64,000 bases of DNA from Athalassotoga saccharophila (GTDB taxonomy: Bacteria > Thermotogota > Thermotogae > Mesoaciditogales > Mesoaciditogaceae). Positions 31,028 to 36,897 of this stretch are shown here, one piece after another (position 1 is the stretch's first letter; every line of letters starts with the position of its first letter). The notes under the pieces are model-generated. The model saw only the letters and a list, made by a program, of their open reading frames with translations. It was not told the origin of the DNA and did not search any database. The stretch is from positions 954,708-1,018,707 of the forward strand of contig NZ_AP019551.1 in the NCBI RefSeq assembly GCF_009936215.1, read 5' to 3'. A program made the translations under genes and the position numbers.

Positions 31028-31633
31028 TCATACTTTAAAATTCTCTTTGATTTTTTCGATTATAACACGAAATAATTGATCTTGTTCCATCTTTCCATCT
31101 ACCTTGACAAATCTCGAAGCAGTTGATATCTGATCATACCCTTCTATGACTTTCTTTATGAATTCTATTCCTTCTGATTCAATTCTATCTTTTTTTTCTC
31201 TTTTTCTTTCTTCAAAAACCTTCTCGTCTATCTCTATGTAAAAGGTGAGATCTGGATACACAAGGTCGGTGGCGAATTCGTTTATGAATGTCACGATCTT
31301 CTTTCCAAGTCCTCTTCCAAATCCCTGATAAGCAACGGAAGAATCTATGTACCTGTCCAAAATGACAAATTCTCCAGCCTTTATCCTCGGCTTTATCTCT
31401 TGAGATACAAGTTGGGCCCTCGATGCCGCAAACAGCAAAAATTCAGTCTTTGGATCCATTGGCGAATCTGCGTTGTCGAGGAGAATTCTTCTTATTTCCT
31501 CGCCTATCTTTGTTCCTCCAGGCTCTCTGAAGACAGAACATTTTATTCCCTTTTTTTCAAAGTAATCTTTGAGCATTAAGATCTGTGTCGATTTGCCACA
31601 TCCATCTATTCCTTCAAAGGTTATGAGCGGCAC
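31028..31633 (-). CDS. tmk: Thymidylate kinase
   Basis: The 201-residue kinase makes dTDP from dTMP. F-E-G-I-D-G-C-G-K-S-T is the P-loop, R-E-P-G-G-T the DRX-type nucleotide site, D-R-Y-I-D-S-S-V-A-Y-Q-G the TMP-binding segment, and R-E-K-K-D-R-I-E the lid. GTG start at 31633 after GGAGG. It lies 12 bp after dnaB, so replication genes are grouped. Confidence 0.95.
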   Translation of the reverse strand: MPLITFEGIDGCGKSTQILMLKDYFEKKGIKCSVFREPGGTKIGEEIRRILLDNADSPMDPKTEFLLFAASRAQLVSQEIKPRIKAGEFVILDRYIDSSVAYQGFGRGLGKKIVTFINEFATDLVYPDLTFYIEIDEKVFEERKREKKDRIESEGIEFIKKVIEGYDQISTASRFVKVDGKMEQDQLFRVIIEKIKENFKV

Positions 31634-31645
31634 ATTCCACCTCCA

Positions 31646-33016
31646 TCAATGCATAAAATCTTTTTCCGTAAAAAGTGCGTACTTTGGTAAGAAACTTATT
31701 TTTATACTTCCTATAGGTCCATTTCTTTGTTTCCCTATGATTATTTCTGCCTCTTTTGGATTGTTGGCCTCTTCTTTTTGATCTTTTTCTTCCTCCTTCT
31801 TGGCTTTGTAATAATCTTCTCTGTGAATGAAAAGGACGACATCCGCGTCCTGTTCAATAGCGCCAGATTCTCTTAAATCGCTAAGCCTCGGTCTCTTTTC
31901 ATCTCTTTGCTCAACGGCTCTTGAAAGTTGTGATAGAGCCACGACACAGACATCTAACTCTCTTGCCAAAAGTTTCATCGCCCTTGATATGTCCGATATC
32001 TCCTGCTGTCTGTTGTCTCTCTTGTCTCTCGATCGAATCAATTGAAGATAATCTACAAAGACTATATCGAGGCCAAATTCCTTTTTTATCTTTCTTGCCT
32101 TTGTTCTTATCTTCAAAACATCGACAAGTGGATCATCATCTATTATTATTGGAAGGTCTCTTAACCTGCTCGCAGAATTTGTCAACCTTTTCCAATCATC
32201 CGTTGAGATGGCACCACTCCTTAAACTTTGAAGGTCTACAAATCCATCTGCGCAGAGCATTCTTTGGGCAAGTTGATCTGCACTCATTTCGAGGCTAAAG
32301 ATAGCAACCTTTTTTTGGTAAAGGAAGGCCATATTCTTTGCCATTGTCAATGCCAAAGCCGTCTTTCCCAAAGAAGGTCTTGCGGCTATTATGACAAGAT
32401 CTGACTTATGAAATCCCGCCGTCATCGCATCAAGAGTTCTAAAGCCAGTTGGAAGGCCAGATACGAGAATTCCACTTTCAGGTGATTCTCTTTCTATCTT
32501 TAATTTCTCTATCTTTTCAAAGGTTGAATTTATGATCTCTCTTATAGGCATGTAAGTTCTTGAATTTTCCTCTTCGGCTATTTTGAAGATCATGTTCTCC
32601 GCTTCATTCAATATGTCTTCGGGATCCCTTTGATCGTAGGCCGCATCTATTATCTTTCCAGAAACGGATATTAACTGTCTTAACAATGACTTTTCTTTTA
32701 TTATTTTTGAATAATACTCAACATTTCCAAGAACCGGAACGGAATCGGCAAAGTGAACGATGTTAACCTCTCCTCCGACGAGATCGAGTTGTTTTTTTGC
32801 GTTAAGAAGATCGGTAACGGAAAGCACATCTATAGGTTTGTTGCTCTGAAACAATTCTTCCATGGCCTGAAAGATGAGTTTTGTAGGTGTAAAGTAAAAA
32901 TCATCGTGCTTAAGGATTTCAAAGACCTGATCTGCACTTTCTGGATTTATGAAAATGGCGCCTATTACGGCCTCTTCGGCCTCCTTGCTTTGAGGGATCA
33001 ATTTCAAATTTTCCAT
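31646..33016 (-). CDS. dnaB: Replicative DNA helicase DnaB
   Basis: The protein has 456 residues. The N-terminal domain (P-Q-S-K-E-A-E-E-A-V-I-G) mediates hexamer packing. The RecA-like motor has Walker A A-R-P-S-L-G-K-T-A near 210, Walker B I-V-F-V-D-Y-L-Q-L, and the R-x-x-E-I-S-x-I-S-R-x-M-K and S-Q-L-S-R motifs, followed by D-L-R-E-S-G-A-I-E-Q-D-A-D. No intein is present. It is 9 bp after the Lpt fusion gene. Confidence 0.97.
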   Translation of the reverse strand: MENLKLIPQSKEAEEAVIGAIFINPESADQVFEILKHDDFYFTPTKLIFQAMEELFQSNKPIDVLSVTDLLNAKKQLDLVGGEVNIVHFADSVPVLGNVEYYSKIIKEKSLLRQLISVSGKIIDAAYDQRDPEDILNEAENMIFKIAEEENSRTYMPIREIINSTFEKIEKLKIERESPESGILVSGLPTGFRTLDAMTAGFHKSDLVIIAARPSLGKTALALTMAKNMAFLYQKKVAIFSLEMSADQLAQRMLCADGFVDLQSLRSGAISTDDWKRLTNSASRLRDLPIIIDDDPLVDVLKIRTKARKIKKEFGLDIVFVDYLQLIRSRDKRDNRQQEISDISRAMKLLARELDVCVVALSQLSRAVEQRDEKRPRLSDLRESGAIEQDADVVLFIHREDYYKAKKEEEKDQKEEANNPKEAEIIIGKQRNGPIGSIKISFLPKYALFTEKDFMH

Positions 33017-33025
33017 AAGATCACC

Positions 33026-36000
33026 TCAGAATATAGAAAAATTGAAGTTGTTAGTTACCGGATCGTAAGAGATGTACTTTTCGGGGAATTGAACTATGAA
33101 AAGAGTTAAGGTAAACTGAGAAAAATTAAATCCACTTTGCGTGTTAAACGCGATAGTGCCCTTTAGGCCGAGACATTGAGAACCAGTCGTAAAATTGAGA
33201 TTCATGGATTGAACCTGATAATTCGAAATGTTGCCTTGAGCAGAGATTCCAAGATTCAACTGTGGTATATTTGCCGATAGAGTTATCGGTACGGGCCAGT
33301 TGAAAGAAATGTTTGGAAATATGTTCATCGAAAACTGGGAGGAAAATTGCAAGTTGCTTATAAAACCAAGGTTTCCTATGTTTGCCGTTATCTGATTTGC
33401 AAGGGTTAAGGGAGAGTTCGATGTGTAATTCGTGCCATAGGTGTAAAGCGTCTGGCCCTGATAGGAAAGGCCTCCATAATTCGAATTCAAGGTTATCTGG
33501 GTGTTTATCGGCTTTAGAGAAGGAGAAATTATGGAACTCGTATTTAAAACATTTTTTATATCGAAAAGATTGAACTTTGAAGAAGTTGTAAGAGTGATGT
33601 TCGACCACGGAGAGATGGGATTGTTGAAATCGTAAGTTACCTGACCTTGAGCACTTAAAGGAATTAACGGAAAGGTATAATTAGCCGTCAGACCTATATT
33701 GTTCTGAAAACTGTTTGTGTCAAAGTTCGAAAGGTTTTGACCGGCAACCTGAGTGTAATTGTAAACGGCTGACAGTCCCACACCAAGAAGATTGTAAGAG
33801 GCCTTTGTATTGGTTACAAGCGCCAGTCTGTCTCCGAATTGACTCGCATTCGAAATCGAAAAACCACTCTTGGCGCCGTAAGAAAAATTCAAACCCAGTC
33901 CGTAAAAATTGTAATTAAGCGCATTAAAAGCGTAGGATGCATCCATAAATGTAGAATAAGAGAGAGGTTGATTTGTGCCAGCACTTAAGGCGGCAGAATA
34001 AGATCCGGTTATGGAATTCAAAGTTGAAAATTTGATCGGCCAAGAAAAGTTTCCGGACAAAGAATGGGAGGTCGAAAAAGCATTTCCCGGAATTGAAAAA
34101 CTGCTATTTCCGCTCAAAGTGCCGGTGACATTCACAGGGCCGATCTTTGTGTTTATGTTCTGAATTTGATAGGGCAAGGTGTAACTTTGATTTGATCCCG
34201 AGACTGTCTGGGTAAGTTTTGCGGCCATGCTTCCTCCAAGCACATTTGCCGAAAGTGAAAGGTTTGAATTCTCATTAGATGTATTTCCGCTTATCTGATC
34301 TTGATAGTTGAAAGCGGTATTGAAAAGGTTAAAAAGGGTCTTGGAGACTCCAAATTGAACTAATTGTGACGTTATAAAACCGGCAGTTTGTGTATTCGAA
34401 TAAGAAAAGTAATATGGCACGTTAATGGCGGTACCCGCAAGATCGATTCCGTATGTTGAAGGGCCATTCGTGTAATTGGTGGAATAAACGTCTCCATTCA
34501 AATTCTTTGAAGTTGCGAAATTGAATTTAACGGCCGTGTACCATCCCTGAGATCCGGCGTAATTTATGGAAAATTCCATTGGTTGCTTTCCTCCGGCCAA
34601 AGAATAGTAATACTGAGGAAAGTAAAAGATCGGAATGCCCAAAAGGTACATGACGATGTTGTCGGCTATCAGGTGATCGCCCGGCACAAGGTATATCTTT
34701 GAGGCCGCGAATTCATAATGTGGCGGACTTGCGGTGCAAGTTGTGATGTATCCATTGTATATCGTCGTCGTGCCGGTAGTAGTATCGTAGTAAGCATTCG
34801 ATCCGAAGAAATAAACATTCTGGGGATTACCGGCGGCATTTTTTATGCTTACGCTTCCCCTAAGATCGATGAGAAAAGAGGTATTTTGGTCGAGAATAAC
34901 AGTCATCTGAGAGGCATATATCGTGTTTTTGCCCTGAATGTAGACTACATTGCCAGAAAAGATGGCCTTTACAGCCTGACGTTGATCGTTGAAAAATATC
35001 TCAACGCTCGAGGCCGAGATCGTGTACTGTGAAGAGGTAAGTTTAACTCCTCCGGTATATTCGACCTGAGTTGCGGAGATCAAATTGAGTTCTCCAGCGC
35101 TTATCTTGACCGTATCGCCGAACGCATGACCGGATAGGGTCACAAAAAGCAAAAGAACGATCGCAAATGGCATTATTCTGACAAAGATCTCTTTTATTCT
35201 AAAGATTATCTTGCTGTCGAGCAAGATGAAAAAGACAAGGCCTACAATTCCAAAGAGTATGTCCGGCAGCCATGCCGCAAGGACAGGATCTATCAGCCCG
35301 CTTTTGCCCATAGCGCTTAACCATGCCCCCGAACCTTGATACAAAACGACAAGTACAAAGGTTACTATAGCACTCCACGCCTTGCTTTTTATTCCAAAGA
35401 ACAGAGAAAATGGAACGCCAAAGAAGGCTATTATAAGGGCTCCAAGGGCATTCGCATATCTTGAATAAAGTTCAACTATGAAAGGTTTTGCATCGAGTCC
35501 GAGTTTTTGGAAAAGTTTTATCCTATCGATAAGTTCAGAAGAACTCATCTCTTGAGCGCTCTTTTGAGATCTCAAAAATTGCACTATGTCCTGGTTTATA
35601 TCCAATTTCATGGTATCAAAAGACATGTCAAAGGTTAGGATGTTGTTTTTGAGTGTATAGATTCTTCCATTTATCAAATACCATTTTTCATCTTTGAAAT
35701 AGGCACTTTGGGCGTACGTGACAGTAACTTCATCGCCGGAAAGATGCGTTATCATAACGGATCCGAATTGCTCGGTCTTTGGGTTGAAGTTACTCACGTA
35801 GAAGTAATTGTCTCCGGCTCTAAAAAAAGTATTCGTCTGGATATTCGGGAAGTTCGATCTGTAAACTGACCTTTGAAGATAATTTGAAGCCTGCGCTGTA
35901 AAAGATGGCACAACGTAATTAGATACCAAATACGTGAAAAAACTCAAAATGGCAGAAAGGATCAAAAAAGGTATCACGATGCGCTTTAGATTTATTCCAT

Positions 36001-36274
36001 GAACCTGAAAGGCCATCATTTCCCTGCGGGTGTAAAAATTCGAAAGTACCCAGAAGATAGAAAGTAAAACCCCTACCGGTACCCCCATTCCAACGAATTG
36101 TGGAATGTAATAGTAAAGCAAAACGAACAAGTTCCAAATACTCACATGGTTTTGCACTATTATATCAGATAACTGATACAAAACTTCCACGCTTACGAAG
36201 ATTATAAAAACAATAAGGCCCGCAAAAAATGGAAAGACAAACTCTTTGGCAACGTATTTGTAAAGAGTTTTCAC
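33026..36274 (-). CDS. Fusion of LptF/LptG-type permease with LptA/LptD-type outer-membrane domain
   Basis: One uninterrupted 1082-residue frame. Residues 1-355 match the YjgP/YjgQ permease: two N-terminal helices, a ~150-residue periplasmic part with L-I-N-G-R-I-Y, then more helices. A further hydrophobic stretch at 366-386 (I-V-L-L-L-F-V-T-L-S-G-H-A-F-G) looks like an internal signal peptide. Residues ~387-500 have the OstA/LptA beta pattern. Near 510-560 lies the LptD signature T-T-C-T-A-S-P-P-H-Y ... G-I-P-I-F-Y-F-P-Q. The rest is Asn/Ser/Thr- and aromatic-rich alternating strands ending in Phe, as in outer-membrane barrels. Cleavage after ~386 could yield two proteins. The substrate is unknown. 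GTG start overlaps the phoU stop. Confidence 0.85.
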   Translation of the reverse strand: MKTLYKYVAKEFVFPFFAGLIVFIIFVSVEVLYQLSDIIVQNHVSIWNLFVLLYYYIPQFVGMGVPVGVLLSIFWVLSNFYTRREMMAFQVHGINLKRIVIPFLILSAILSFFTYLVSNYVVPSFTAQASNYLQRSVYRSNFPNIQTNTFFRAGDNYFYVSNFNPKTEQFGSVMITHLSGDEVTVTYAQSAYFKDEKWYLINGRIYTLKNNILTFDMSFDTMKLDINQDIVQFLRSQKSAQEMSSSELIDRIKLFQKLGLDAKPFIVELYSRYANALGALIIAFFGVPFSLFFGIKSKAWSAIVTFVLVVLYQGSGAWLSAMGKSGLIDPVLAAWLPDILFGIVGLVFFILLDSKIIFRIKEIFVRIMPFAIVLLLFVTLSGHAFGDTVKISAGELNLISATQVEYTGGVKLTSSQYTISASSVEIFFNDQRQAVKAIFSGNVVYIQGKNTIYASQMTVILDQNTSFLIDLRGSVSIKNAAGNPQNVYFFGSNAYYDTTTGTTTIYNGYITTCTASPPHYEFAASKIYLVPGDHLIADNIVMYLLGIPIFYFPQYYYSLAGGKQPMEFSINYAGSQGWYTAVKFNFATSKNLNGDVYSTNYTNGPSTYGIDLAGTAINVPYYFSYSNTQTAGFITSQLVQFGVSKTLFNLFNTAFNYQDQISGNTSNENSNLSLSANVLGGSMAAKLTQTVSGSNQSYTLPYQIQNINTKIGPVNVTGTLSGNSSFSIPGNAFSTSHSLSGNFSWPIKFSTLNSITGSYSAALSAGTNQPLSYSTFMDASYAFNALNYNFYGLGLNFSYGAKSGFSISNASQFGDRLALVTNTKASYNLLGVGLSAVYNYTQVAGQNLSNFDTNSFQNNIGLTANYTFPLIPLSAQGQVTYDFNNPISPWSNITLTTSSKFNLFDIKNVLNTSSIISPSLKPINTQITLNSNYGGLSYQGQTLYTYGTNYTSNSPLTLANQITANIGNLGFISNLQFSSQFSMNIFPNISFNWPVPITLSANIPQLNLGISAQGNISNYQVQSMNLNFTTGSQCLGLKGTIAFNTQSGFNFSQFTLTLFIVQFPEKYISYDPVTNNFNFSIF

Positions 36275-36897
36275 GAATTACCTCCCGTTGGATAGAGAAA
36301 AGCGATCTTAAGACATAGATCCGCTATTTCCTCTATGCGCTGCGAAATCATCATCAATCTCAAAGCCCTCGAAACGTTCTTTGGCGATTCCATCATGTAA
36401 AGTTTCAACTCGTCTTCGACCATTTCATAGATTCTATCGACCTCATTTTCACTTTTAACCATCTCGTCAAGCACTTTACCATCGCCGTTCGAATATGTTG
36501 ACATACTCTTTCTTAACAATTCTTCCGTTATCTTTGCCATCTTTGGTAAGTCGATGAGAGGTTTGAGCATCGGTTCCTTAACGAGTTCGACAGTTTGATG
36601 GGAGATCTTTTTCGAATTATCGCCTATCATCTCAAGAAAATTGGCTATCAATATACCATTTCTTATTTCAACAAGAAAACGACCTATCGGAGCATATTCT
36701 CCGATTATGAGAGTGCCTTTTTCAACTATTGCGTCTCTCATCTCGTCTGCCAGTTTATCGTCTTCGATGACCTTTTTTGCGATATCAAGATCTCTGTTTG
36801 TAAGAGCGTAGACGGACTTATCAAAAAGGTCCGTGACAAGGATACTCATCTTCATCAAAGACTCTTTGTACTCTTCAACAACGCTTAAAGGTATCAC
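36271..36897 (-). CDS. phoU: PhoU-family phosphate regulator
   Basis: The 208-residue helical protein has the two PhoU repeats, each with an acidic metal motif (D-x-x-x-D near 51-55, E-x-x-x-D in the second half around S-E-N-E-V-D-R). PhoU links the Pst transporter to phosphate signalling. It is separated from pstSCAB by pilT on the opposite strand. The start is GTG at 36897 after AGGGTGG. Confidence 0.9.
   Translation of the reverse strand: MIPLSVVEEYKESLMKMSILVTDLFDKSVYALTNRDLDIAKKVIEDDKLADEMRDAIVEKGTLIIGEYAPIGRFLVEIRNGILIANFLEMIGDNSKKISHQTVELVKEPMLKPLIDLPKMAKITEELLRKSMSTYSNGDGKVLDEMVKSENEVDRIYEMVEDELKLYMMESPKNVSRALRLMMISQRIEEIADLCLKIAFLYPTGGNS

Follow-up and report, generated by a model that had tools for sequence, protein, structure and literature searches.

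An LptFG-LptD fusion shared by Thermotogota and Bipolaricaulota, a probable polyprotein of an Lpt-type lipid-export pathway

The DNA considered here, referred to as the window, is a stretch of 64,000 nucleotides from the genome of Athalassotoga saccharophila, a member of the Thermotogota. Its minus strand, on which all window features described below are located, carries a gene (33026..36274) that begins with GTG, is preceded by a strong Shine-Dalgarno sequence (GGGAGG, 36281..36286) and encodes, in a single frame, a protein of 1082 amino acids in which an LptF/LptG-type permease is joined to LptD. The original prediction had read this frame as a permease followed by an LptD-type barrel, and profile searches agree with it, with PF03739 and PF03968 both scoring over their cut-offs; its domain order and its assignment of the DNA to Thermotogota were also correct. 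Directly upstream, overlapping the fusion gene by 4 nt, lies a phoU-like gene (36271..36897; named from its own sequence), and directly downstream, after a gap of 9 nt, lies a dnaB-like gene (31646..33016), which adjoins the fusion gene in another genome too (G097, locus L102). The dnaB-like gene is followed by a tmk-like gene (the two occupy 31028-33016), and the fusion gene may share its expression with these three neighbors. It is the only LptF/LptG gene in its own genome. Its nearest named relative, from a Mesoaciditoga MAG, is 95% identical. Chimeric assembly, a frameshift artifact and chance were considered as sources of the joined frame and were ruled out, as the single-frame architecture is found again in dozens of genomes, complete single-contig ones among them.

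The permease half (residues 1-353; 35216..36274) is composed of transmembrane (TM) helices and a periplasmic jellyroll at about residues 149-224. The LptF_LptG profile PF03739 matches residues 6-349 with 265.7 bits (cut-off 27.9), covering profile positions 1-351 of 353, and in a VIA-align comparison residues 1-353 align with LptG (6mjp_G) at a Z score of 27.6, with 348 residues aligned and an rmsd of 7.9. The scores for the LptF and LptG equivalogs TIGR04407 and TIGR04408 (140.5 and 152.4 bits) are below their cut-offs of 230 and 240 bits, respectively. Because both equivalog cut-offs are missed, this half is classified as LptFG-like rather than as LptF or LptG proper. It has the same fold and belongs to the same family as LptF and LptG of the LptB2FG complex, and an LptB partner is present; in contrast to that complex, the genome has a single permease gene, and LptD is attached to the permease C-terminus. 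One permease gene accompanied by small OstA proteins is also the arrangement in Negativicutes and Halanaerobiales with a single LptF/G (PMC5007114); however, LptD was not found in those organisms and LPS genes are present, whereas the present genome lacks LpxC and has LptD in fused form. A different layout was seen in another phylum, where an 864-aa frame contains two LptF_LptG domains in tandem (L212, G320 C4).

The LptD half begins with an LptA-like jellyroll (residues 387-560, the end being approximate; 34595..35116), within which the LptD_N profile PF03968 matches residues 436-506 with 35.2 bits (cut-off 20.4). When residues 387-720 of the family were compared by hhalign with six standalone LptD proteins, including that of Escherichia coli, the probability was 99.85%. 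The LptD cysteine/aromatic motif, which had been noticed from the start, was located at residues 511-570 (TTC..PHY..IPIFYFPQYYY; 34565..34744). Its C513 is invariant (37/37 rows of the alignment) and is aligned with E. coli C173 in the profile alignment, and a second cysteine near the chain end, C1034, is found in 31 of the 37 rows. The two correspond in position to the cysteines of the interdomain disulfide of LptD, C173 and C725 in E. coli.

The rest of the chain (residues 561-1082; 33029..34594) is the outer-membrane barrel, seen in the structure model and ending, as had been proposed, in Phe. The LptD barrel model PF04453 gives no match to the fusion up to E = 1; it is likewise missed, at E 0.01, by an LptD-like protein that stands alone in another phylum (L113). 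The AlphaFold model, built from a 35-sequence alignment, has a mean pLDDT of 82, with values below 50 only at residues 140-148 and 377-387, the latter in the junction, and it contains both the jellyroll and the barrel after residue 390, which is what structure prediction had been expected to reveal if the original reading was right. Its pTM is 0.43, and the placement of the two halves relative to each other is therefore not predicted. The top Foldseek match is LptD (5iv9_A, E 1.7e-22). In VIA-align, residues 386-1082 reach Z scores of 15-20 against full-length LptD chains (19.8 for 9a39; 18.7 for 9ia0, with 555 residues aligned and an rmsd of 10.1), compared with 15.1 for the best unrelated barrel. 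The half resembles LptD of E. coli and other bacteria in its jellyroll and large barrel, its TTC..P motif and its C173/C725 cysteine positions; it differs from them in being joined to the C-terminus of a permease, in lacking a PF04453 match and in belonging to a genome without LpxC. In Kosmotogaceae/Mesotoga (family f6; L067, L069, L070, L071 and L075), the fusions are 1434-1474 aa long, with an LptD half longer by about 350 residues. The model of a Bipolaricaulota fusion (pLDDT 54) was too poor for use.

The two halves are connected by a junction (residues 354-386; 35117..35215) that consists of a positive n-region (KEIFVR), a hydrophobic core and a c-region (SGHAFG) with a signal-peptidase-type site, and the hydrophobic, signal-peptide-like stretch originally described at residues 366-386 is found at that place. 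Cleavage by signal peptidase I is predicted after G386, between positions 35117 and 35116. Among the family sequences, residue 385 is mostly F, and residue 386 varies but is, in 34 of 36, one of the small residues S, G, A, T and C. The core comprises about 7-12 strongly hydrophobic residues, with a median of 16 residues from the last charge to the site; in the signal peptides of the BamA-like and LptA-like proteins of the same genome (MKKYLVLLVLIISITMVSFS followed by Q and MKKFLPFLLLIAVFSVVSIS followed by D, the cut sites being read by eye), this distance is 17 residues each. The junctions of Bipolaricaulota have textbook sites of the AxA-Q type, where the hyphen marks the cut, such as AWA-QE, AFA-QD and AQA-AP. 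Some TM segments of the permease satisfy the -3/-1 rule as well, and use of this rule as sole proof of a cut was dropped as unspecific. Taken with the positive n-region, the short core and the small -1 residue, the junction has the appearance of a signal peptidase I substrate. The jellyroll begins about 3 residues past the hydrophobic segment.

The fusion, at first treated as a local oddity, is a hallmark of two phyla, Thermotogota and Bipolaricaulota. PF03739 is present in 100 of 103 Thermotogota genomes, and in 87 of the 103 the fusion is intact, its frame being 1000 aa or longer; most shorter PF03739 frames in Thermotogota are interrupted by a frameshift or by the end of a contig. At L104/L178 (Marinitoga lauensis), L105 (G043) and L109 (G093), the fusion is disrupted by frameshifts or an in-frame stop, reflecting either assembly error or real decay. 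The genome scan revealed fused frames of 1046-1164 aa at eight Candidatus Bipolaricaulota loci. When 60 Bipolaricaulota genomes were sampled, PF03739 was found in 56, and in 47 of these its frame is 968 aa or longer; each of the best 12 frames of that sample matches the LptD profile as well (12/12). Among the matches listed, none of 40 loci from other phyla has LptFG and LptD in one frame, and neither do the long frames of G114, G141 and G308. The original prediction was to count as refuted if the fusion proved to be a widespread and already characterized family; widespread it is, while no characterization was found in the literature searched, which covered few subscription papers and contained neither an LptFG-LptD fusion nor an account of Lpt in Thermotogota or Bipolaricaulota, so that an earlier notice is possible.

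In a quick LptFG tree of 95 sequences, Thermotogota and Bipolaricaulota form one clade (SH-aLRT 99), apart from 67 others; because of this common clade, the fusion is likely to have arisen once and to be common to both phyla. In three genomes (G221, G358 and G114), the two are separate genes, with lptFG immediately preceding lptD; loss of the stop codon between them would therefore yield the fusion.

Separate genes are found in two Thermotogota lineages. Among the genomes of this phylum, only G005 has LptF, LptG and LptD each as a gene of its own: it has two permease genes, and LptD, located elsewhere in the genome, starts with MVIKKFKKNQIFHILILIILLIPLMAFT, an ordinary signal peptide. Since its permeases are nested among fused relatives in the quick tree, this arrangement is a secondary split. 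In G053, the permease ends with TGA and, 4 bases further on, an ATG opens the signal peptide MHLRYKSFSPVLFIISLFFIILSGTKVFS; the genome is a draft, and a sequencing error is a possible cause of this break. In both G005 and G053 the break lies just ahead of the signal peptide. G005 also encodes a secreted 603-aa protein of repeated LptA-like jellyroll units (L083:6294-8105, minus strand), perhaps a pre-joined bridge.

Other components of the pathway accompany the fusion. LptB scores over its cut-off in 98 of the 103 Thermotogota genomes, and that of A. saccharophila (G000:C1:926276) reaches 287.4 bits against a cut-off of 240. The same genome has one cluster of bamA-, rsmH-, ftsL- and ftsI-like genes together with lptB (L120:10274-16355), which ties outer-membrane assembly to cell-wall division genes. 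A BamA-like protein is present, with BamA matches below the curated equivalog cut-off, and an LptA-like protein of 212 aa has a signal peptide and a PF03968 match of 33.4 bits. The LptC profile PF06835 gave no match in the A. saccharophila genome and is over its cut-off in 17 of 103 genomes, mostly on the LptA-like protein; in E. coli, the bridge can form without LptC if LptF is altered (PMC9972910). With these genes, Thermotogota have a near-complete Lpt route. Nearly all outer-membrane genes studied other than bamA have been described as missing from Thermotogae (PMC8871954).

LpxC, the product of a key LPS gene, was found in none of 111 genomes (103 Thermotogota and 8 Bipolaricaulota), in agreement with the reported absence of LPS (PMC5007114; PMC6092417). 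Because LpxC is absent from all genomes tested, lipid A is unlikely to be the cargo. An "outer membrane permease", possibly the fusion gene, was noted in an Acetothermia genome that lacks LPS genes (PMC6092417).

Considered together, these features make it probable that the fusion is a polyprotein of the Lpt lipid-export pathway from which LptD is freed by signal peptidase I and which serves a cargo other than lipid A. The permease (residues 1-353) would form a homodimer and associate with LptB, giving the inner-membrane ABC transporter. The hydrophobic segment of the junction would be the retained signal peptide of a once-separate downstream lptD; placed internally, it would start translocation of the remaining chain, and signal peptidase I would cut after about residue 386. 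BamA would fold the freed LptD into the outer membrane, the separate LptA-like jellyroll protein would span the periplasm as the bridge, and the substance carried would be a lipid or a glycolipid other than lipid A. The cytochrome b/c1 polyprotein FbcH of Bradyrhizobium, whose proteins are unrelated to those of the fusion, also unites an inner-membrane and an exported protein in one chain and is cut at an internal signal peptide, as proposed here. The original prediction had left two options, a polyprotein cut by signal peptidase and a continuous chain; the junction features, the AxA-Q sites and the natural splits clearly favor the former. What counts against a cut is the long persistence of the fusion in both phyla, which could mean that the link between the halves is itself of importance.

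The retention of the fusion by nearly every member of both phyla would also suit a chain that stays uncut and acts, as one polypeptide, as a covalent Lpt bridge from permease to barrel. A single chain with an inner-membrane-side domain and an outer-membrane barrel has been proposed for Veillonella MlaD (PMC10665443). However, MlaD contains a long helical spacer and is proposed to remain intact, whereas the fusion has a signal-peptidase-type site and no segment that could cross the periplasm between membrane and jellyroll, and its barrel could therefore extend no more than a few nm beyond the inner membrane. In both phyla, the outer membrane comes away from the cell at the poles (PMC10665443), and a rod-shaped coiled-coil spacer, Omp-alpha, is found in the periplasm (PMC9388160). 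The core of the junction is, moreover, short for a TM helix, and the halves are separate genes in two lineages. Mainly because of the missing spacer, we regard an uncut trans-envelope chain as unlikely. It is similarly doubtful that an uncut or partly cut chain links pump and barrel at zones of close contact, pinning the export of an unknown lipid to the cell cylinder.

There is a small chance that the processing is as proposed and that the system is no Lpt-type lipid exporter, its parts having been recruited for a different cargo such as polysaccharide or protein. The absence of LpxC from every genome and the reported lack of LPS (PMC5007114) would be compatible with this, whereas the retention of LptB, LptFG, the LptA-like protein and LptD as a set favors an ancestral bridge mechanism whose amphipathic cargo has changed. 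It is very improbable that the LptD half arises by internal translation initiation or is freed by another protease: the split genome G053 does have its own start codon at this spot, but a Shine-Dalgarno sequence with a start codon is present in the junction of 9 of 37 sequences, the corresponding counts for control windows being 1-8, and an internal start was rejected, as no conserved ribosome site precedes the LptD half in these 37 sequences.

The permease-LptD fusion is common to Thermotogota and Bipolaricaulota, the two phyla for which polar detachment of the outer membrane has been reported (PMC10665443). If the polyprotein reading is correct, an internal signal peptide joining an inner-membrane and an outer-membrane protein would be an uncommon solution for producing the two ends of a single machine. 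The finding suggests that both phyla export some lipid other than LPS to the cell surface, and it makes the lining of the toga a testable matter, through the genes and lipids of the Lpt route.
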